DNA from: an uncultured Eubacteriales bacterium
GTDB taxonomy: Bacteria > Bacillota > Clostridia > Lachnospirales > Lachnospiraceae
DNA: 35,830 nt
Direction: 5' to 3'
Assembly (NCBI GenBank): GCA_900316715.1
Contig: ONEC01000027.1
Location: 1-35,830, forward strand
The translations under genes and the position numbers were made by a program. Shown in pieces: positions 3,115-18,121 of the stretch (position 1 is its first letter; each line of letters begins with the position of its first letter). A model generated the notes under the pieces. The model had not been told where the DNA came from. It saw only the letters and a list, made by a program, of their open reading frames with translations, and searched no databases.

Positions 3115-3715
3115 TAAATATTTTAATTAATTCCTGTGCCCTGTCAGTATCATAATCTTCTATAGCTTCTATGACCTGAGACATTGTTTCTTTAAGAGGT
3201 TTTCTTCTGAAGCTGCAGCCTGAAAGTTCTTTCATAACCTTCTCTGCTTCAAGTACTTCTGAGGTATTAAGCAGTCTGGTTATATTTACAAGCATCTGTC
3301 TCAGCACAGGCTCATTTATCTCTTTATCATCGTCATCATCACTATCGCCATCATCGATAGCTTTCTGGATCCGCATTGCTGTTTCAGCATAAACACTCAG
3401 AAGATTATCAATCCCCTCATCGATGACCGGCATATCATCTTCGATAGCTGCCATCTCCTGCTCAAAGGCAAGAGCACTGAGTTGATCGGCACCGATAGTC
3501 TTCGCTGCACTCTTCAGTCCATGCACCCGGATCTGATAATCCTTCATATCCTTATTAACATATGCCGCTTTTATACCGGCAGCTCTCTCATATTCATTCT
3601 TCGCAAAATCGCTGACGATCTCTATGTAGAACTCCTTATCTCCGGCAATATACTCCATAGCAGCAGCTATGTTAAATCCCTGTTCCTTAAGCCTTGATAT
3701 CTTCTCATCTTCCAT
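3092..3715 (-). CDS. Hpt (histidine phosphotransfer) domain protein
   Basis: This is a 207-aa soluble protein. Residues about 15-120 form an Hpt-like helical bundle with the phospho-acceptor motif HGLKSAAKTIGA (His65). An acidic Asp-rich linker at about 123-132 leads to a helical C-terminal tail (about 133-207) like the tails that follow Hpt modules in hybrid histidine kinases. Hpt proteins relay phosphate between receiver domains of sensor and regulator. No kinase or response regulator is nearby, so its partners are unknown. It starts 47 bases after the FolB-FolK-PheA fusion with a G-rich ribosome-binding site and is probably the last gene of the folate operon. Confidence 0.85.
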   Translation of the reverse strand: MEDEKISRLKEQGFNIAAAMEYIAGDKEFYIEIVSDFAKNEYERAAGIKAAYVNKDMKDYQIRVHGLKSAAKTIGADQLSALAFEQEMAAIEDDMPVIDEGIDNLLSVYAETAMRIQKAIDDGDSDDDDDKEINEPVLRQMLVNITRLLNTSEVLEAEKVMKELSGCSFRRKPLKETMSQVIEAIEDYDTDRAQELIKIFIDKGYSM

Positions 3716-3762
3716 ACGCTGTCCACCCCATATTTTGTAATGCTTCGGAATCTACTATCTAC

Positions 3763-5448
3763 TTAAAATGTTCCCAATAGGTTCATCTCTCTGGCTTCTG
3801 CATGAATCTCTCCAAGCGCTTTACGTACATTTTTATCTGTAAGCTTTCCCTCAAAACTTACATAGAACACATACTCCCATTTCTTTCTGAGAGAAGGTCT
3901 CGACTCTATGCTGGTCATGTTGACACCATTTTCATTGATGCGTCCCAGAATCTCATAGAGAGAACCAACCTTATGCTGGAGAGTAAATGATATGCTTATC
4001 TTATCTGATGTTGATAAGAATATCTTCTTTGCTGTTACGATAACAAACTTCGTGGAATTATCATTCTGGAAGTTTATTCTTCTTGCAAGTATCTTAAGTC
4101 CATAGAGTTCAGCCGCACGCTCACTGGCGATGGCTGCCTCCCTGATATCTCCCTTATCCTTAACACGTCTTGCAGCAAGGGCTGTATTGCTGAGACTCTC
4201 AGCCTGAAATCCATGTTCATCTATAAAGTCCTTACACTGCATAAGCCCCTGTGGATGGGAGTAAACTTTTCTTATATCGGAAATGTGTGCATCCGGCAGA
4301 CCAAGAAGCGCATGCTCTATATCAAGTACTACCTGACCTACAATCTGAACACCACTGTTTCTGATTATATCATATATTCCGGCTACAAATCCTGCTGAAC
4401 TGTTCTCAATAGGAAGAACACCAAACTCCGCCTTGCCGGAAACGGTCTCACTGACAACATCATCAAAGCTCTTTACATTATATACATCTGCATCTTCGCC
4501 AAAATACTTCTTGGCAGCAGACTCTGCATAAGCTCCCGGGACACCGCAGTATACTATCCTGCTCTTCTCCGTTGCCAGTTCTTCTACTTCTGAATATTCA
4601 TCTGTATCATAAGGCTCTGCCTCATGCTCCAGCTTACGTATGAGCCTTGCATAAAGCTCCTCAACCGTCTTTCTGTATATCGGATGATATGCATAAGGAG
4701 CTATCTCATTAAGAGGCTTTAATACGAATTCCCTGTTGGTCATCTCAGGATGAGGTATCTTCAGCTTCTCATCAGCTGTGATAACATCATCAAAGAGAAG
4801 TATATCTATATCAAGAGTTCTCGGTCCCCAATGAACGATTCTCTCTCTTCCTGCTTCATTCTCTATATCATTTATTACATGAAGAAGCTGATGAGGAGAA
4901 TAAATAGTACTGATCTCAACTACTCCGTTCAGGAAGTCCGGCTGTTCCACAAGTCCCACCGGCTCAGTGTTTATGAACTCTGATACTCTCTCTACGCTTA
5001 TCAGTTCATCTCTTCCCAGCTGCTCTATAGCAAAGTCCAGATAGTTCTCTCTGTCGCCGAGATTTGAACCTATTCCCAGATATGCTGTATGTCTTGATCT
5101 GGATATCTCTACTGAAACATCAGAAAACTCAAGCTCTATCGGTGCTTCAGGCTTACTGATCTTTACATCGACTGTTTTTATGACCGGGAACTTAAGAAGT
5201 ATCTCTGTTGCAACAGTTTCAGCTACTGTCTCTATAAGATCATACTTCTCACTTCTCACAGTATCATCTATAAGATGAGCTACCGAATCATAGTTTACTG
5301 TCTTTGAAAGGTCGTCATTCCTTGAGGCTTTTCTTACATCAAGGTGAAGCCTTGCTGATACATAGAAAACCTGACCTTCCTTCTTCTCTTCTTCAAATAC
5401 GCCGTGATAAGCGTATACTTTAAGTTTTTCGATTGTAATGATATCCAT
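3763..5448 (-). CDS. FolB-FolK-prephenate dehydratase (ACT) triple fusion
   Basis: One 561-aa frame carries three enzymes. Residues 1-119 are dihydroneopterin aldolase (VYAYHGVFEEE at the start, NYDSV, and LIETVAE with the conserved Glu). Residues 121-272 are HPPK (LGIGSNLGDR, QPDFLN, GPRTLDIDILLF with the metal-binding Asp pair). After a short acidic linker, residues about 296-475 are prephenate dehydratase (IENSSAG, SHPQGLMQC, NTALAARRV), with STKF where TRF is usual. Residues 482-561 are an ACT domain with ESRP, typical of phenylalanine feedback. The first two parts make 6-hydroxymethyl-dihydropterin diphosphate for folate; the third turns prephenate into phenylpyruvate. No chorismate mutase domain is present. 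Its ATG directly abuts the folP stop codon, so translation is probably coupled. Confidence 0.93.
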   Translation of the reverse strand: MDIITIEKLKVYAYHGVFEEEKKEGQVFYVSARLHLDVRKASRNDDLSKTVNYDSVAHLIDDTVRSEKYDLIETVAETVATEILLKFPVIKTVDVKISKPEAPIELEFSDVSVEISRSRHTAYLGIGSNLGDRENYLDFAIEQLGRDELISVERVSEFINTEPVGLVEQPDFLNGVVEISTIYSPHQLLHVINDIENEAGRERIVHWGPRTLDIDILLFDDVITADEKLKIPHPEMTNREFVLKPLNEIAPYAYHPIYRKTVEELYARLIRKLEHEAEPYDTDEYSEVEELATEKSRIVYCGVPGAYAESAAKKYFGEDADVYNVKSFDDVVSETVSGKAEFGVLPIENSSAGFVAGIYDIIRNSGVQIVGQVVLDIEHALLGLPDAHISDIRKVYSHPQGLMQCKDFIDEHGFQAESLSNTALAARRVKDKGDIREAAIASERAAELYGLKILARRINFQNDNSTKFVIVTAKKIFLSTSDKISISFTLQHKVGSLYEILGRINENGVNMTSIESRPSLRKKWEYVFYVSFEGKLTDKNVRKALGEIHAEAREMNLLGTF

Positions 5449-6264
5449 TTAGACCCTCTGTATACCTGCAATCATATCAAGTGCTCTTCTGTGAGCCTTT
5501 ACATCATGTACTCTGAATATGCGGCATCCTGCAAGATAGCCCGCTACATTTACTGCTATTGTTCCTTCAAGTCTCTCATCAACCGGGAGGTTCAGTGTAA
5601 GTCCTATCATGGACTTTCTTGAAACTCCAAGCAGCATTGGGAGCTTAAATTCATCTATTATCTCACCCAGGTGCTTCATAACACCCAGATTATCTTCCAA
5701 GGTTTTACCAAAGCCGATACCCGGATCAAGTATTAATCTGTCTTCAGGTATTCCTGCATTTCTTGCAAGAACAATGCACTCTCTTAAGTCTGATTCCACA
5801 TCCTCTATAAGGTTTGTATAGTCTGCTTCTTTACGGTTATGCATAAGGATAACGCCCGGCTTATCAGACGCAGCGATAACTCCTGCCAGACGAGGATCAG
5901 CCTTCAGTCCCCAGATATCGTTGATCATATCTGCGCCGGCCTTCAGTCCAGCTTCTGCAACATCTGCTTTATACGTATCCAGTGTTATCGGAATGTCAAA
6001 ACGTGCCTTAATAGCTTCGATTACAGGAGCTGTACGTTCTATCTCTTCCGGTACTGGAACAACAGTATAACCCGGTCTTGTCGACTCTCCGCCGATATCT
6101 ATGATATCTGCGCCCTCGCCTATCATTTCCTCTGTATGCTGCAGTGCCTTATCTATTGTATTAAAGGAACCTCCATCTGAGAAGGAATCCGGTGTAACAT
6201 TCAGGATTCCCATCACATATGGTGTATAGCCTTCCAGTTCAAATTCTCTGTTTCCTATTTTCAC
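5449..6264 (-). CDS. folP: Dihydropteroate synthase
   Basis: This 271-aa protein has the family signatures ILNVTPDSFSDGG (residues about 20-32) and DIIDIGGESTRPG (about 54-66), plus LDPGIGFGK and GVSRKSMIG further on. It joins 4-aminobenzoate to 6-hydroxymethyl-dihydropterin diphosphate to give dihydropteroate, and is the sulfonamide target. The start codon is GTG, preceded by GAGGTG at suitable spacing. It lies between folC-HD and the FolB-FolK-PheA fusion, so substrate supply and use are co-transcribed. Confidence 0.96.
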   Translation of the reverse strand: MKIGNREFELEGYTPYVMGILNVTPDSFSDGGSFNTIDKALQHTEEMIGEGADIIDIGGESTRPGYTVVPVPEEIERTAPVIEAIKARFDIPITLDTYKADVAEAGLKAGADMINDIWGLKADPRLAGVIAASDKPGVILMHNRKEADYTNLIEDVESDLRECIVLARNAGIPEDRLILDPGIGFGKTLEDNLGVMKHLGEIIDEFKLPMLLGVSRKSMIGLTLNLPVDERLEGTIAVNVAGYLAGCRIFRVHDVKAHRRALDMIAGIQRV

Positions 6265-6294: not shown

Positions 6295-8064
6295 CTAGTA
6301 CAGAAGCCCCTTGTTCTTAAGAGCCTCATCCCAGAAGCACTCCGGCTCTGCCTCACATCTGAAGCAGTTTCTCGAAAGCTTATCAGCTCTGAAGAGAAGT
6401 TTTGCCAGCGTTCCGTCAGGAGCTGTATCTTCGCCATGAAGCTTTATGGCTTCTAAGATTACCTTCACTTCTGTATCACTGTATCCCACACGGTGCAGGA
6501 TATCTTCAGCTATTATAACGCCCGCATCAGCGTGGCTCATATTCTTATCCTTAGTGTATTCAGAACATCTTCCTATATCATGAAGAAGTGCCGCTGCGTA
6601 TATCACATCTCTGTCTATATCCAGTCCTTCATCTGAAGCTATAAGTGCTCCGATCCTTGCAACGCTTACCAGATGCTCTATCCCATGTCTGCAGAACCTT
6701 CTGGTGCTTTCCTCTTCTTCTATCTTGTTAAGTCTCTCCTGAAACACCTTATCCTTCAGGATAAGATTATGTCTTTCACTTTTCATGATATTTATGATCT
6801 CTCCGGCAAATGTAAGAGTTCCGCACGCTATTATAACGTCCGTCTCTTCTATGTCAGACAAAGCGATCCTTACTGCGTCCCTGCAGTTTTCAGCATACTC
6901 GCCTTCTATGCCCCGGGCCTGAACTTCCTTAAGAAGCTTTTCTCCATCCAGAGCTCTCGGACTTACTGTGGTTACAGTAACTGCCTTCTTCATATATGGA
7001 CACAGGCTGTCCAGCATACGGGTATATTCCTTGTCTGCCAACACTCCCATTATAAAGATGAATCTCTTGTTTGTAAAACATTTACTGAGCGTATCTGCAA
7101 GTCTTACCCAGGCATCTCTGTTATGAGCACCGTCCACTACAAAAAGAGGCTCACGGCTTACAATGGTCATTCGGCCCTGCCACTCAGTCTCTTCCAGTCC
7201 TGTCTGTATATCACTGTCACTTAGTTTGAGTCCGCCCTCTGATTCAGGAATCTCGCTGAGAAGGTGCAGCACTTCAATCGCTGTACATGCATTTAATACC
7301 TGATAATCACCGCTTAAGTTTATCTTATAATCTGTTCCCTTATAGGAAAATGCACTTCCACTGATATCTCTCGACTTTATATCCAGTTCATCCCGGTCCG
7401 GATATACCACTTTATAATCTCTTTCCTCGGAATCCTTATCTATTACAGCTTTCACTGAATCTGTCTGAGGATAGGAAACCAATCTTCCTCCGGTTCTTAC
7501 TATGCCGAGTTTCTCCTCGCATATCACTTCAGGAGTATTTCCAAGGAACTGCATATGGTCAAGGCTGACCGATGCCAGAACATCTATCACGGCACCTTCT
7601 ATAACATTGGTTGCGTCGCCCTTGCCGCCCATGCCGCACTCGATCAGCATGTAATCGCAGCCTTCTTCTGCAAAATAAAGGAATGCCAGAGCAGTCTCAA
7701 TCTCAAAGGAGGTCGGTGATCTGAAACCATCAGCTATCATTTCCTCCACAACGAAAGCTATACGGGTCATGAGCGATGCGCATTTTTCTTTCCCGATATA
7801 CTGCTTGTTGATCTGCCAGCGTTCTCTATAATCAAAAATAGCAGGGGATATATATCGCCCTACCTTAAGATTCTTGAGAATAAGGGTCTCTTCCACATAA
7901 GCCATTATGCTTCCCTTACCATTAGTCCCTGCAATATGAAGAGCTTTTACGCGATTCTCAGGTGAACCGAGTCTCTTTAAAAGCTCCATAATAGCGGAAA
8001 TGCCCGGCATACTGCCGAGCTTATTCTTCTCCGTTATATAGTTTAAAACTTCTGTATAATTCAT
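6295..8064 (-). CDS. folC: FolC (folylpolyglutamate/dihydrofolate synthase) fused to an HD phosphohydrolase domain
   Basis: Residues 1 to about 430 are FolC, a Mur-ligase-like enzyme that adds glutamate to dihydropteroate and folates. The P-loop HIAGTNGKGS (43-52), ECGMGGKGDATNVI, SLDHMQFLG and VVDGAHNRDA (310-318) are visible. Ordinary FolC ends there. Residues about 440-589 form an HD domain: His460 or His464, HD at 495-496 (AALLHDIGR), His511 and Asp561 (RADKLSR). Such domains hydrolyse phosphate esters or nucleotides. Its fusion to a folate enzyme suggests a folate role, perhaps removal of phosphates from dihydroneopterin triphosphate, but this is inference. The gene starts 7 bases after the deacetylase gene. 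Several Cys lie near the C-terminus (CFRCEAEPEC). Confidence 0.93.
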   Translation of the reverse strand: MNYTEVLNYITEKNKLGSMPGISAIMELLKRLGSPENRVKALHIAGTNGKGSIMAYVEETLILKNLKVGRYISPAIFDYRERWQINKQYIGKEKCASLMTRIAFVVEEMIADGFRSPTSFEIETALAFLYFAEEGCDYMLIECGMGGKGDATNVIEGAVIDVLASVSLDHMQFLGNTPEVICEEKLGIVRTGGRLVSYPQTDSVKAVIDKDSEERDYKVVYPDRDELDIKSRDISGSAFSYKGTDYKINLSGDYQVLNACTAIEVLHLLSEIPESEGGLKLSDSDIQTGLEETEWQGRMTIVSREPLFVVDGAHNRDAWVRLADTLSKCFTNKRFIFIMGVLADKEYTRMLDSLCPYMKKAVTVTTVSPRALDGEKLLKEVQARGIEGEYAENCRDAVRIALSDIEETDVIIACGTLTFAGEIINIMKSERHNLILKDKVFQERLNKIEEEESTRRFCRHGIEHLVSVARIGALIASDEGLDIDRDVIYAAALLHDIGRCSEYTKDKNMSHADAGVIIAEDILHRVGYSDTEVKVILEAIKLHGEDTAPDGTLAKLLFRADKLSRNCFRCEAEPECFWDEALKNKGLLY

Positions 8065-9086: not shown

Positions 9087-9122
9087 TAATACTTCTATAT
9101 CATTAGCGGGTAAGAAGTATTA
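9087..9122. promoter_or_regulatory. 10-bp inverted repeat overlapping the -10 region (candidate operator)
   Basis: TAATACTTCT (9087-9096) and AGAAGTATTA (9113-9122) are perfect complements with a 16-base spacer. One arm overlaps the -10 box of the promoter at 9119-9148 and the other lies in the early transcribed region, just before the deacetylase ribosome-binding site. No T run follows. The position suits a repressor site, but no regulator is identified. Confidence 0.45.
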
Positions 9123-9148
9123 TAGCCTTTCAGAAAAGGCTTTGTCAA
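9119..9148 (-). promoter_or_regulatory. Consensus sigma-A promoter of the deacetylase-folate operon
   Basis: TTGACA (9148-9143) and TATAAT (9124-9119) match the consensus exactly with an 18-base spacer. The spacer itself holds a 7-bp dyad (AGCCTTT/AAAGGCT). The promoter sits in the last codons of the upstream small membrane protein gene and points at the gene starting at 9076. Confidence 0.8.
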
Positions 9149-9485
9149 CGCCTTCTTTCTTCTTTCTCATCTCATCATACTGTCTGTACATATACTGGAC
9201 TGAATTCTCCAGCAGATAATAGTGCATGCAGTAAGGAATAAGCAGCACAAAAAGCATGACGATAAGCGGCAGAATGACTATCTTTTCTGAAACAACAAGT
9301 GCGAGAATCGATATAACCGTGCATATGGCAACCAGTATAAAAACTAAGAGATGCACCAGTCTTTCATGCATGAAGAATCCTATCTGATTCAGATGCTTCT
9401 CTATCTCCAGATCCCAGTCTCTTTCTTCATCACTCTTCAGGAGTTCATCTATATATGCCGTGTAGGCCTTTATTCTCTTTTTCAT
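9120..9485 (-). CDS. Small two-helix membrane protein, function unknown
   Basis: This 121-aa protein has a charged N-terminal cytoplasmic part (about 1-40), two hydrophobic helices at about 42-65 and 68-90, and a charged Lys/Arg/Glu-rich tail. I do not recognise a family. It follows the glycerophosphodiesterase gene by about 50 bases, so the two may be co-transcribed. Its 3' end contains the promoter of the next operon. Confidence 0.75.
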   Translation of the reverse strand: MKKRIKAYTAYIDELLKSDEERDWDLEIEKHLNQIGFFMHERLVHLLVFILVAICTVISILALVVSEKIVILPLIVMLFVLLIPYCMHYYLLENSVQYMYRQYDEMRKKKEGVDKAFSERL

Positions 9486-12845: not shown

Positions 12846-14543
12846 TCAAAATTCTCCCTTTTCCCATTCATCAAGAAATTCCGTAAGAGCCTTACGCTCC
12901 TTCTCGATCATTCTCTTATCCTGGGACGCAAGTGCAAGCTCAAACTTTCTGACCTGCTCTTCGATATATTCTCTGTCCATTCCGAGGCTCTCTTCATAGA
13001 GTCTTTCACATCTCAGAAGAACGAGTTTGTTCTCTTCCTGATCACGCGGATGAATCTTCAGATATGACAGTTCCTGGAATCTCTTCTCAATCTCCTCATC
13101 TGTCATCTCTGTATACTGACCCTTGATGATCTTTCTTACCTTCTTACCTGTAGCAACGACTGTAACCTCAACCTCAAGGATAGAGTTAATGTCGTAGGTA
13201 TATGTAACATCAACTGCCTGGTCTCCCGCCTTGCCCTTCGGAACCTCAAGTTCAAGAGTTCCAAGAAGCAGGTTGTTGCGTGCCATACGGCTCTCACCCT
13301 GAAGAACCTCTATATCTATCTTGGTCTGATCATCCCTTACCGTGTAGAATCTTTCTGTACGGCTGGCAGGAATAACTGTATTTCTCTCAATGATCGGGAA
13401 GAAATGTCCCGACTCTCTGTGATTTCCGCCAAGATCAACTGATACGTCTGTTCCCAGAGTAAACGGACATACATCAGTAAGTACCACTTCCTTGATGGAT
13501 TCACGTCTCTCCTTCATAGCTCCCTGGATAGCCGCTCCAAGAGCAACTGCCTCATCAGGATTAACTGTAGTGTCAGGGAATGTCTTAAAAAGTTTGCTGA
13601 CAAAGCTTCTTACTCCCGGAAGACGGGTAGCTCCACCGACAAGTACGATCTTATCGATGTCACTGAGCTTAAGCTTTGCATCTGCAAGAGCTCTCTTTAC
13701 AGGACCTCTAATCTTCTCGTAGAGATCCTCGCACTCTTTATCATATTCCTTCTCGGAAATCTCTGTTTCTATTATCTCTTCGCCGATCTTACACTTCATC
13801 ACTGCAGTGCCTGACTCAGAGAAACTCTTCTTTGCCAGCTCTGCCTGTCTGTGGATCATCTTAAGTTCACGATAGTCCAGCGCTTCCTTGCGTACCTTCT
13901 CGTTCTTCTCAAAGAACATTCTCTCAAGAACCTCTGTGAAGTCCTCTCCTCCAAGGAAGTTATCTCCTGCTACCGCCCTTACCTCAAGTATCGGTGGGAA
14001 GTAGTCAAGGATAGATACATCGAAGGTACCGCCGCCCAGATCGAATACCAGATTCTTTGCAGGCTTTGTATCGTTATAAAGTCCGTAAGCAATGGCTGCA
14101 GCTGTCGGCTCACTTATGATTCTCTCAACCTTAAGTCCTGCCAGCTCTCCTGCCCTCTTTGTGGACTTTCTTCTCATATCGTTAAAGTAAGCCGGTACGG
14201 ATATAACCGCCTCAGTTACTTCTTCTCCAAGAAATGTCTCGGCATCTTCCTTAAGAGATCTGAGTACGAAGCTTGAAAGTTCCTCTGCTGTAAAAGACTT
14301 TGAACCAAGCTCAAACTTCTTATCAGAACCCATGCTTCTCTTAAATACTGCCGCACTGGTTTCAGGGTAAAGCTGCATTCTTTCGATAGCTGTCTTACCT
14401 ACAAATATATTGTCATTTTCATCTATACTTACAACTGATGGTGTAAGCACTTCACCAAATCTATTCGGTATTACCTTTGGTCCCTCATCGGTATAGTAAG
14501 CAACGAGGCTGTTGGTGGTACCGAGATCAATTCCAATAATCAA
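12846..14543 (-). CDS. hscC: HscC-type Hsp70 chaperone, TTG start
   Basis: The 565-aa Hsp70 opens with the ATPase motif [16 protein letters not shown]. It has the phosphate and adenosine motifs [16 protein letters not shown] and [10 protein letters not shown] and a beta-rich substrate domain ([28 protein letters not shown]). It is shorter than DnaK (about 610-640) and has a reduced helical lid, as in the HscC class. The start codon is TTG at 14543, overlapping the TGA stop of the upstream J-like gene, and the ribosome-binding site AGGAGG lies within that gene's last codons. The two products are therefore translationally coupled. A grpE partner is not seen here. Clients are unknown. Confidence 0.9.
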
Positions 14544-17500
14544 TTTCTACCTCCTGTGAATGCAATCATCGCGCTGATTACCTCACTGTCATCACGTCCA
14601 ATTTCGTTTGCTTTTCTATAATACTCCAAAGCACCCGCTTTGTCATTCTTAAATTCACATATCTTAGCCAGCGAGAGGTATGCCTCATAACATGAGCCGT
14701 GTCTGCAGAAAGAGCATCTCGGAGCATCCACAGCACTCTCAGCCATTGCCACCGCTTCATCCCACTTACCGGCAAATGCCAGAAGCAAGGCATAATCCTT
14801 CTTGCGGTAGGTTGAATTCCTATGATAATTAAGATAGTTCTCAACCGATCCCGACATCTTCTTTATGGTAAGGATAGCTGCTTCAGCAAGTCTCATTGAA
14901 ACACCGTACTTACCGAGTCTCCAGGCCGCTCCTCCCATCTCGACACATATATCTATCAGAGTCGATCTCATGTTGTTATCGGTCACAGACGAAACCGGCA
15001 GGAGAAGATTATAGGCTTTATCATAAATCTTATAAGCTTTCGCATAATCTCTCGCATCATAATATTCAATCGATGCAACCTTCTGAAGAATACTACAGGA
15101 TACGTTATTATTCTTTATAGCTCTTTTACCGGTTAAAAGACGGTTATCATTAACCATCTTATAGATTCGCTCATCTTTTATGAACTGAGCCTTTCGATAA
15201 TCACCCTTGCTCAGGCATACAGTGAACATCTGATCATAATCTTCCATTATGTATTCAAGATACCATTCATTTCCCGTCTCTTGAAACTTCTCCTGATGGT
15301 ACTTGAGCATCGTCTCACATTCATTTAAAGCTTCATCATATCTTCCGGCCCTTCGGAGAGATTTTGCTATCCTGCTGTGAACGTTTATATTTTCGCCGAA
15401 GGTAATGATGATATTTCTCAAAACCGTGATCGACTCATTGAATTTCTCCTGCATCTCGTAGCATCTTGCCAGGTTATGATACAGATTGGACAGCTTGTCG
15501 TTCACGTCCACATCCTTCATAAGTCTGATTCCGGTCATAAAGCTTTCTTCAGCATGCTTATAGTCCTTAAGCATCATGTACGCATAGCCTCTGGCATTAA
15601 ATGCATAGTAGTTGGTCTCGTCCTTCTCTATTGCCTTATCGCAGTCAGCTATAACCTTTTCAAATTCATAGCCTGATGAATAAAGGAGCGCCCTCTCTAC
15701 ATAGTAGTAATCATCATCATTGTTATCCAGCTGCTTAGTGGCATGAACTACTGCCAGATCATACTTTGCCGGATCCTCTGAATCATCATAGATGTCAGAA
15801 TAGATACGGGACAGCTTGTTGTTGGCTGCATGATGTCTAGGATTATATTCAAGAGTCTTCTTAAAGAACGTTTCCGCCTCTGCATATTTATCATGCTCAT
15901 AAAGATAGAGACCGTATGCATAGTTAAGCGGTGCGTCCTGTGGGTACTTGGCAAGTCCTGCCTTATAATACTCCTCCGGAGATTCATCCTTGATATTCTT
16001 AAAATGTCCGGCTGACAGATAGTAATCTCTCAGGGCTTCGCAGTCCTCGAGGTCTCCCTCACCCTTTGCCAGCTCATCATCCAGTTCCTTATATATCTTC
16101 TCTGCGGCTTCAAGATTACTCTGCTCTTTATAGTAATCTGCCTTTACAAGCTGCAGTGCTGAGCTGTGAATGCCGTTCTCCTCTGCCCTTTTAAATACAT
16201 CCTTCAGATCCTCGTTATGATCGTAGATATAAAATATCTTAGCTGCAAAGAAGTAGGACTTCGGATACTGCGGTGCATGCTGTATCAGCACATTATAATC
16301 ATCGATTACAAGCTGTGCATCTCTCATCTTATAGGCTGTCTCCTGCCTGTGGATATAGGTGGATGCGTTATACTTGTTAAGTTCCAGCATATGATTCCAA
16401 ACTTCCATTGCTGCAGCATAGTCAGCTCTCTGATGATAAAGAAGTCCGAGAGTCTCAAGATAATAAGGTATATCAACCTCGTCCTTTTCTTTCTCTACAG
16501 ACAGCTTTATATACTTCTCTGCATCCTCCAGCTTATCAAGCCTGAAGTTTGCAGCCCCAAGAAGATAGTAGCTGTAGCCTATCCTCTTAAGACGCTTTGC
16601 ATCTTCCTCGTTAACACTGTCCGGATCTTTATTATATCTTTCCTCAATAAGCGTCAGTCTGCGGAGCCACTCTGCAAGGAACGGCTCAGCCTTCTCAAAG
16701 TCATCGATCCTGCTGTAACATCTTCCGATAAGATTACAATAATCTATATAAAGCTCGTCATCTTTGTCTATATATGACAGTGCCTCCAGCTCTTCAATTG
16801 CTTCTTCCTTTCTGTCGCATCTGAAGAGGCTCCAGCACTTATCGATCTTATGCCTCATATTGTCCGGTTCTGCGGCCACTCTGTCAGCATAGAAATCTAC
16901 AAGTTTATTGTTGATGTATGGAAGAAGGATTGATGCATCAGAGTTCTGATTATCCACCTCAAACAGCTTAAGCAGCACTTCATTTGCATCCTCGTACTCT
17001 CCCTTAAGGCAGAGCAGCATGATCTTTGCACGAAGGCCAAGATTAAATCTCTCCCTTTCAGCCAGAACCTGTTCCAGAGTTTCCTCGATAACCTTCATAT
17101 CCTCATCTGTGATAAGCGGATGATTCTTTCTCTCAGGTTCTATCTCCGGATTAATGCTGTTAATAAGCGCATGGTTCACTATTACATAGCAGGCACTGGT
17201 CCTGCCATAGATATCCATAAACTCGCCCAGACGGGTATTAAGGATAGCTCTTGCCATAGCATGTGCATCCTCGTAACGTCCCTCATCATCCAGGAGTCTC
17301 ATCATTCCTGTATATTCCATCGGATGCCATATTTCGGCTGTAAGGAACATACGAACTGATCCATAAAGCTTATTTAAAGCATCAGGCTCTGCATTTGCAG
17401 GAATAAGCTCAGGATTCTCGCTCTTTCTGACTGCGTTGATATCTTCCACCGGCTGGATCACCACAGCTGCCTCTCTGATATAGTTATCATAGTGGCATAA

Positions 17501-18121
17501 ATATTCTGCCAGCTTATAATCGCACTCTCTCTTATGAAGTTCAGGAATGGTAACATCAGCTTCTCTGATGATCTCCTTGAAGCTTTCTCTCGGCATCAGA
17601 TAGCTGTACTCAAAGAAGTCCTCATTCTGGATATGAAATGCAATGTAATCCATAAAGTCCGGAGGAAATACTTCTTTAAGATTCTTCAGCTCCATCATAA
17701 TGGAAAAGGTATCATCTGCCAGCTTCCATACCTCATGAGGCAGATAGAATCTGTCCAGTGCGAGCTTCAGGAATTCTTCCCTTGCCTGATCTGCTGTATC
17801 CAGATCGTTGCAGAGCGGATCGCTGAATATCTCTTTCCATACATCTAAGTCTATTCTTAATTCAATATCATCGTAGGTCTCAACCATTCTGTCTACTAAT
17901 GGCTGAAATCTTGGATCAGCAGCTTCTCTTGAGTCGGTCTCCCCCTCTGATTCCTGACTTCGTCTCATAGCTTCCTCAAATGCTTCTCTAAGGCGCTTAA
18001 AGCCCTCCGGATCATCCTCCGGATTGACGCTTACAACCTTTGCACGATAGGCAGCTATGATGCTGTCCTGATCCTTCGTTTCTTCAATTCCTAAAACACT
18101 CCAAACTTCACCAATGTCCAT
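14540..18121 (-). CDS. Giant J-like-domain TPR protein paired with HscC
   Basis: This 1193-aa, acidic, soluble protein has an N-terminal J-like module (about residues 1-55: [20 protein letters not shown], then [21 protein letters not shown]). The helix pattern matches a J-domain, but the HPD loop is replaced by NPE (33-35). From about residue 250 to the end it is built of tetratricopeptide-like repeats, for example [20 protein letters not shown] and [20 protein letters not shown], giving a long superhelix suited to binding clients. It follows tex by 3 bases and overlaps hscC by 4. In E. coli hscC also lies near J-like genes (djlB, djlC), which supports a co-chaperone role. Direct function is inferred. 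Confidence 0.88.

Follow-up and report, generated by a model that had tools for sequence, protein, structure and literature searches.

A FolB-FolK-prephenate dehydratase-ACT fusion gene in a folate gene cluster of Lachnospiraceae

The fused gene and its surroundings

The window analysed here, a 35,830-nucleotide contig (ONEC01000027.1, assembly GCA_900316715.1) of an uncultured bacterium of the family Lachnospiraceae, carries on its minus strand a gene in which two folate enzymes are followed by prephenate dehydratase (PDT) and an ACT domain (Table 1). A preliminary description had proposed, from the letters alone, that three enzymes and an ACT domain share one frame, and this is borne out by the sequence, which is open for 561 amino acids with zero internal stops, while the plus-strand reading of the same positions is rich in stops. 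Each of the four domains lies above its curated Pfam cut-off: FolB with 125.5 bits against 31.8 (and 120.6 against 72.15 for TIGR00525), HPPK with 138.5 against 25.7 (141.7 against 54.1 for TIGR01498), PDT with 184.4 bits over profile positions 1–180 of 181, and ACT with 32.2 against 27. The cut-offs of three NCBIfam PDT equivalogs were all missed, the nearest of them narrowly (211.2 versus 219), and none of the 11 NCBIfam models listed covers the whole triple. Codons 241–312, which span the join, contain no in-frame ATG, GTG or TTG.

Table 1 Features of the folate cluster in the window and mutase-containing proteins of related loci
Feature	Position or locus	Strand	Basis
Fused gene FolB-HPPK-PDT-ACT, 561 aa	3763..5448	-	ORF and Pfam
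FolB (dihydroneopterin aldolase) domain, residues 4-115	5104..5439	-	PF02152, E 1.8e-36
HPPK (FolK) domain, residues 123-251	4696..5082	-	PF01288, E 1.7e-40
HPPK tail and linker, residues 252-297	4558..4695	-	between Pfam domains
Prephenate dehydratase (PDT) domain, residues 298-475	4024..4557	-	PF00800, E 2.3e-54
ACT domain, residues 485-548; ESRP at 515-518	3805..3996	-	PF01842, E 9.3e-8
folP (dihydropteroate synthase)	5449..6264	-	Pfam PF00809, NCBIfam TIGR01496
folC fused to HD domain	6295..8064	-	Pfam Mur ligase domains and HD; NCBIfam TIGR01499 folC
CM-ACT proteins, about 285 aa, with decayed-looking PDT middle	L089-L094, L099, L123, L132, L134, L135		
CM-ACT proteins, grouped apart, with decayed-looking PDT middle	L095, L097, L098		
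Shorter forms of CM-ACT proteins	L100, L101, L133, L136		

The single domains are ordinary, and both FolB-FolK and chorismate mutase (CM)-PDT-ACT fusions are already known. In a search of the PDB, in which 59 sequences matched, the best match to the first half was the bifunctional FolB-FolK (DHNA-HPPK) protein 2cg8, from Streptococcus pneumoniae, and the best match to the second half was the stand-alone prephenate dehydratase 2qmx (residues 298–561, E 1.4e-46); none of the best stretches listed bridges both halves. Residues 1–268 of the 270-residue 2cg8 chain align with residues 1–269 of the window's protein (E 1.7e-54), so that the pair of folate steps and their order agree, but 2cg8 ends after HPPK whereas the window's protein continues into PDT and ACT. 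PDT is followed by ACT in PheA (the P-protein, CM-PDT) and in 2qmx, as it is here. The window's protein does not belong with the P-proteins, since Pfam finds no CM_2 domain in it: its N-terminal partner is FolB-HPPK, and the mutase is encoded by a separate gene. Eukaryotes are reported to have FolB-FolK-FolP fusions (PMC4224340), triple proteins that likewise start with FolB-FolK; their third part is the next folate enzyme, whereas here it belongs to another pathway and FolP is encoded separately next door.

The ATG of the fusion follows directly on the folP stop codon, and the next folate gene upstream, beyond folP, is folC-HD. The HD gene stands alone beside folC and folP in many of the relatives that we fetched; one guess for the HD part of FolC-HD is a pterin phosphatase. 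Within the genus, some loci such as L116 (G004) and L119 (G007) have no folP in the folate cluster and carry it elsewhere in the same genome; loss of folP was considered for these members and rejected, as a FolP match was present in all 31 genomes with a completeness of 90% or more and a contamination of 5% or less, and in 58 of the 61 genus genomes overall. No Rfam family, riboswitch or T-box, reached its gathering score within the window. Between positions 2200 and 12000 we counted 25 promoter-like sites (21.1 expected) and 16 terminator-like sites (4.8 expected), and we do not use these counts as evidence. Elsewhere in the window, two minus-strand frames, 219–1688 (489 aa) and 9120–9485 (121 aa), had no Pfam match at E 0.001, and at 12846–18121 (minus strand) the frames of an Hsp70-like protein with a TTG start and of a 1193-aa tetratricopeptide-repeat protein share 4 bases.

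Distribution and conservation of the fusion

The architecture recurs well beyond the window. Of the 16 loci that came from named genomes, 7 have it, at 58–96% identity, the nearest named relative being Lachnospiraceae bacterium UBA2864, whose fused gene is 96% identical. Within the window's own genus, 51 of 61 genomes carry the fusion (49 complete and two seen in part, cut by contig ends), with the domains checked in all 51, and a PDT match of any kind was found in 58 of the 61. The other ten genus genomes, in which we saw no fusion, comprise four with another type of CM-PDT-ACT (G003, G017, G013, G037), two whose PDT-ACT stands separately (G021, G035), one whose PDT is cut by a contig end (G039) and three that gave no PDT match (G036, G042, G049). 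Two further genera, g270 and g266, carry the fusion in nine of ten and four of four genomes respectively, with the domains checked in eight and three newly fetched genomes plus G329 and G325. One g270 genome is discordant: G754 has an unfused FolBK that is 65% identical to residues 1–268 of the window's protein (L145, L167), whereas the fused proteins from the rest of the genus share 42–46% identity with the window's protein over their length. Misassignment, transfer and contamination are possible readings of this discrepancy.

In a wider Lachnospiraceae sample, 6 of 299 genomes and 5 of 298 genera had a full-length match among the matches listed, best first. In a sample of the order (344 genomes, 151 genera, E 1e-90) the window's own protein was the sole full-length match among the 22 rows listed, the other 21 of which all belong to the same family, and in a sample of the phylum (398 genomes, E 1e-60) no full-length match other than the window's own was found, at thresholds that could miss more diverged fusions. 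The preliminary description had also raised the prospect that the architecture might prove to be well described across many taxa. Many species do carry it, yet we found no description of FolB-FolK-PDT-ACT in the open-access literature searched, outside which most subscription journals lie.

The catalytic residues are strongly conserved. Whole fused frames were present at 57 loci, and removal of 13 duplicates left 44 distinct fused proteins for counting, a set that leaves out ten genomes fetched later. FolB residues E21, Y53, E73 and K99, and HPPK residues R201, W207, R210, D213, D215, H233 and R239, are kept in 44 of 44 and likewise in 11 of 11 further fused proteins. These are the catalytic Glu, Tyr, Glu and Lys of FolB, and the two Mg-binding aspartates and the substrate residues of HPPK. 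In PDT, the Thr and Phe of the T-x-F motif are present in all 44, with a middle Lys in 26 and Arg in 18. The earlier statement that all active-site patterns are intact thus stands with one nuance: the PDT motif Thr-Arg-Phe (TRF) reads TKF in the window's protein. The ACT domain has its ESRP in 44 of 44; of the 11 further proteins, the E is missing in one and the R in one, perhaps the same protein. A phenylalanine-binding ACT domain of the PheA kind is recognised by the ACT fold behind PDT, by ESRP and by the motif G-[AS]-L, and we class the present domain as one on its Pfam match and its ESRP.

The stretch between HPPK and PDT, 44–47 residues long in the 44 proteins, is the least conserved part, with a mean identity of 34% compared with 52–68% in the four domains. 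Against the 96%-identical UBA2864 copy, dN/dS is 0.02 for the whole gene and 0.09 for residues 273–297, values that are rough because dS exceeds 1; for the same residues it is 0.46 against L079, and several other pairwise comparisons were saturated.

The fusion is therefore real. An error of sequencing or assembly, be it the missed stop or the frameshift at the junction that the preliminary description had allowed for, has next to no chance of being correct: the window does come from a draft genome of 195 contigs, but the same frame recurs in independent genomes (the 96%-identical copy, 51 of the 61 genus genomes and two further clades), and the gene has no internal stop and a low dN/dS.

Adjacent genes and the number of fusion events

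In the unfused relatives that we fetched, folC, the HD-domain gene, folP, folBK and pheA (CM-PDT-ACT) are often consecutive. Starting from 96 FolBK places and 138 PDT places among the best matches listed, 47 unfused genomes had both genes, and in 18 of these PDT lies within 6 kb of folBK; were the genes placed at random in a genome of 3 Mb, the expectation would be about 0.4% per genome. In 17 of the 18 close pairs PDT is downstream of FolBK on the same strand; four more adjacent pairs in fetched loci (G218, G293, G067, G356) stand outside this count. A further gene of the set is fused in G340 (L068, 4365–6839, minus strand), where FolC is joined to CM-PDT-ACT in a protein of 824 aa. This protein and FolC-HD indicate that other neighbours of this gene set fuse too.

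One relative (G062, L056) has the two halves as overlapping genes: its folBK overlaps by 8 bp a PDT-ACT gene that has no mutase. The 27-aa tail of this FolBK and the 19-aa leader of its PDT add up to 46 residues, as in the HPPK-PDT gap of the window's protein. The PDT of L056 is sister to the main fused clade with unstarred support (82/88 and 89/88 in two PDT trees, the first of which left out frames cut by the locus end and identical rows). The FolBK half of this relative (L042/L056) has no such sister position: the FolBK tree places it with L046, L044 and the g270 fusion L036, and it is L038 that comes closest there to the main clade of fusions (95/89). Transfer or weak resolution may lie behind these discordant halves. 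Since its FolBK half groups elsewhere, we take L056 as a model of an intermediate and not as a demonstrated ancestor.

The PDT domains of the fused proteins fall into three clades, all at 100% bootstrap: a main clade (the window's genus, g71 and g130), g270 and g266. Fused rows were thinned for these analyses (to 23 of 44 in the FolBK tree, and to 21 of the 42 of the main clade in an enlarged PDT tree, which was built without the other CM-PDT type, the two separate PDT-ACT proteins and the exported rows). A single fused clade was rejected for PDT (p-AU 0.008, and 0.002 with more g270 and g266 members) and for FolBK (p-AU 0.001). Pairs of clades were rejected more weakly for PDT, with p-AU of 0.003–0.018 in the enlarged tree and of 0.013 and 0.049 earlier, the pairing of the main clade with L037 being borderline at 0.049. 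Long-branch error, considered for two odd fused rows, was set aside when more g270 and g266 members were added and the rows still stood apart.

From these sequence comparisons, the fusion probably arose more than once. Tree shape by itself does not distinguish fusion from fission, and gain and loss look alike in it, so a single ancient FolBK-PDT-ACT fusion in the family that was later split many times deserves weighing. The linker lengths are indeed similar across clades (44–47 residues in the main clade, 47 in a g270 member and 45 in a g266 member), and fission is reported to be common among eukaryotic folate gene fusions (PMC4224340). The same length also results from the FolBK tail and PDT leader of the unfused L056, however; a single fused clade is rejected for both halves; and in most of the unfused PDT genes that we examined there is a chorismate mutase domain, which would have to be regained. 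We therefore regard the ancient fusion as unlikely. Repeated fusion is the simpler reading, since the mutase domain is present in most unfused relatives.

Rare fusions of a phenylalanine-pathway dehydratase have precedent in exported CM-cyclohexadienyl dehydratase proteins, whose two topologies are reported as independent fusion events (PMC10520331). Those proteins differ from the present one in that the dehydratase is of another family, the protein is exported and the partner is chorismate mutase. The three fused clades provide a natural replicate in which to ask whether repeated neighbour fusion reflects function or proximity only.

Separate mutases, likely function and other dehydratases

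That no chorismate mutase is attached to the fused protein had been noted at the outset, and the genome agrees: its one CM_2 domain is in a separate 90-aa protein on another contig (C194), and a mutase hidden in the linker was rejected as Pfam finds none there. A further pheA, which the preliminary description had suggested looking for, was not found either; in this genome, 98.64% complete, the fusion holds the only PDT that we saw. Across the genus, CM_2 occurs in 57 of 61 genomes, and the four that have none are all fused and 58–73% complete. In 47 of the 51 fused genus genomes a mutase match lies outside the fusion, and in G019 this match is partial.

We inspected 25 separate mutase frames, a chosen set that includes some from unfused genomes. 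Seven are bare mutases of 90–119 aa. Four, of 187–212 aa, have a weakly ACT-like tail, which was under the Pfam cut-off in the two tested. Eleven, of 282–298 aa, consist of mutase, a middle part and ACT. In an hhalign comparison this middle part shows a faint likeness to PDT (probability 79, 54 columns); of four such proteins run against Pfam, none gave PDT, and ACT exceeded its cut-off in two, equalled it in one and fell short in one. The remaining three (G001, G002, G032) are of a further kind, with a clear N-terminal PDT part (probability 98.5, 3 sequences). Their sequences suggest that the 282–298-aa and further-kind proteins derive from P-proteins in which the dehydratase part decayed when a different PDT had become available. 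In a mutase tree, from which two rows were skipped as too short, the window's mutase falls among the separate mutases (92/92, unstarred; short alignment and long branches).

FolB and HPPK catalyse consecutive steps of folate synthesis, and PDT is not known to share an intermediate with either, so we expect no channelling from one half to the other. Cores of dihydroneopterin aldolase are octamers and PDT forms dimers or tetramers, so a single chain that serves both would be expected to build a large assembly. We consider it probable that the protein is a trifunctional enzyme in which phenylalanine inhibits PDT alone, and that it arose by fusion of neighbours in a folate operon after loss of the mutase. 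Dihydroneopterin aldolase and HPPK would perform their two consecutive folate steps, the PDT part would convert prephenate to phenylpyruvate, and phenylalanine bound to the ACT domain would most likely feed back on the dehydratase alone. The starting state would have been an operon folC-HD-folP-folBK with pheA (chorismate mutase-PDT-ACT) as its downstream neighbour; a pheA copy would have lost its mutase domain, the remaining PDT-ACT gene would have joined folBK through a variable linker, and chorismate mutase would be supplied from a separate gene. The main benefit may be a fixed production ratio of the enzymes from one operon. The sequences themselves show the architecture and its conservation, the gene neighbourhood, the relative with overlapping genes, several fused clades and the separate mutase; from these we infer the three working activities, the action of ACT on PDT alone and this order of events. 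The relatives offer plausible in-between steps, namely neighbouring genes, overlapping genes, the fused gene and decayed old copies.

A more far-reaching proposal, close to one raised in the preliminary description, is that phenylalanine at the ACT domain alters the rate of HPPK or dihydroneopterin aldolase and so tunes both users of chorismate. It could draw on the ESRP kept in all 44 distinct fused proteins, on the retention of the fusion in 51 of the 61 genus genomes, and on the three separate fused clades, which repeated selection could explain. We nevertheless find it rather improbable: conservation is lowest in the linker, at 34% identity; FolB and HPPK are not known to use chorismate, which only the 4-aminobenzoate branch does; ACT control of PDT needs no folate part; and adjacency (18 of 47 genomes) together with the other fusions of the same gene set suffices to account for the join. 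Equally doubtful is its strongest form, a repeatedly evolved regulatory device in which ACT-bound phenylalanine influences the aldolase-HPPK core by way of linker and oligomer while the mutase has been split off into its own gene; if it were true, folate synthesis would answer to phenylalanine. Under the favoured reading, of a trifunctional enzyme with phenylalanine acting on PDT alone, two pathways, folate and phenylalanine, are still joined in one polypeptide. This matters for annotation: the protein may be named by one of its domains, and prephenate dehydratase or FolK would then seem to be missing from the genome.

Five members of the genus (L105, at 3559–4509, whose protein is the same as that of L006; L106; L111; L112; L113) carry an extra PDT-family protein with no ACT match, and the five form one clade (100/100). 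The L105 protein has a full PDT domain in Pfam (E 7e-59), and those of L105, L106, L111 and L113 have a hydrophobic N-terminus that by eye resembles a signal or lipoprotein peptide. By these sequence features, the extra protein is possibly an exported prephenate dehydratase.
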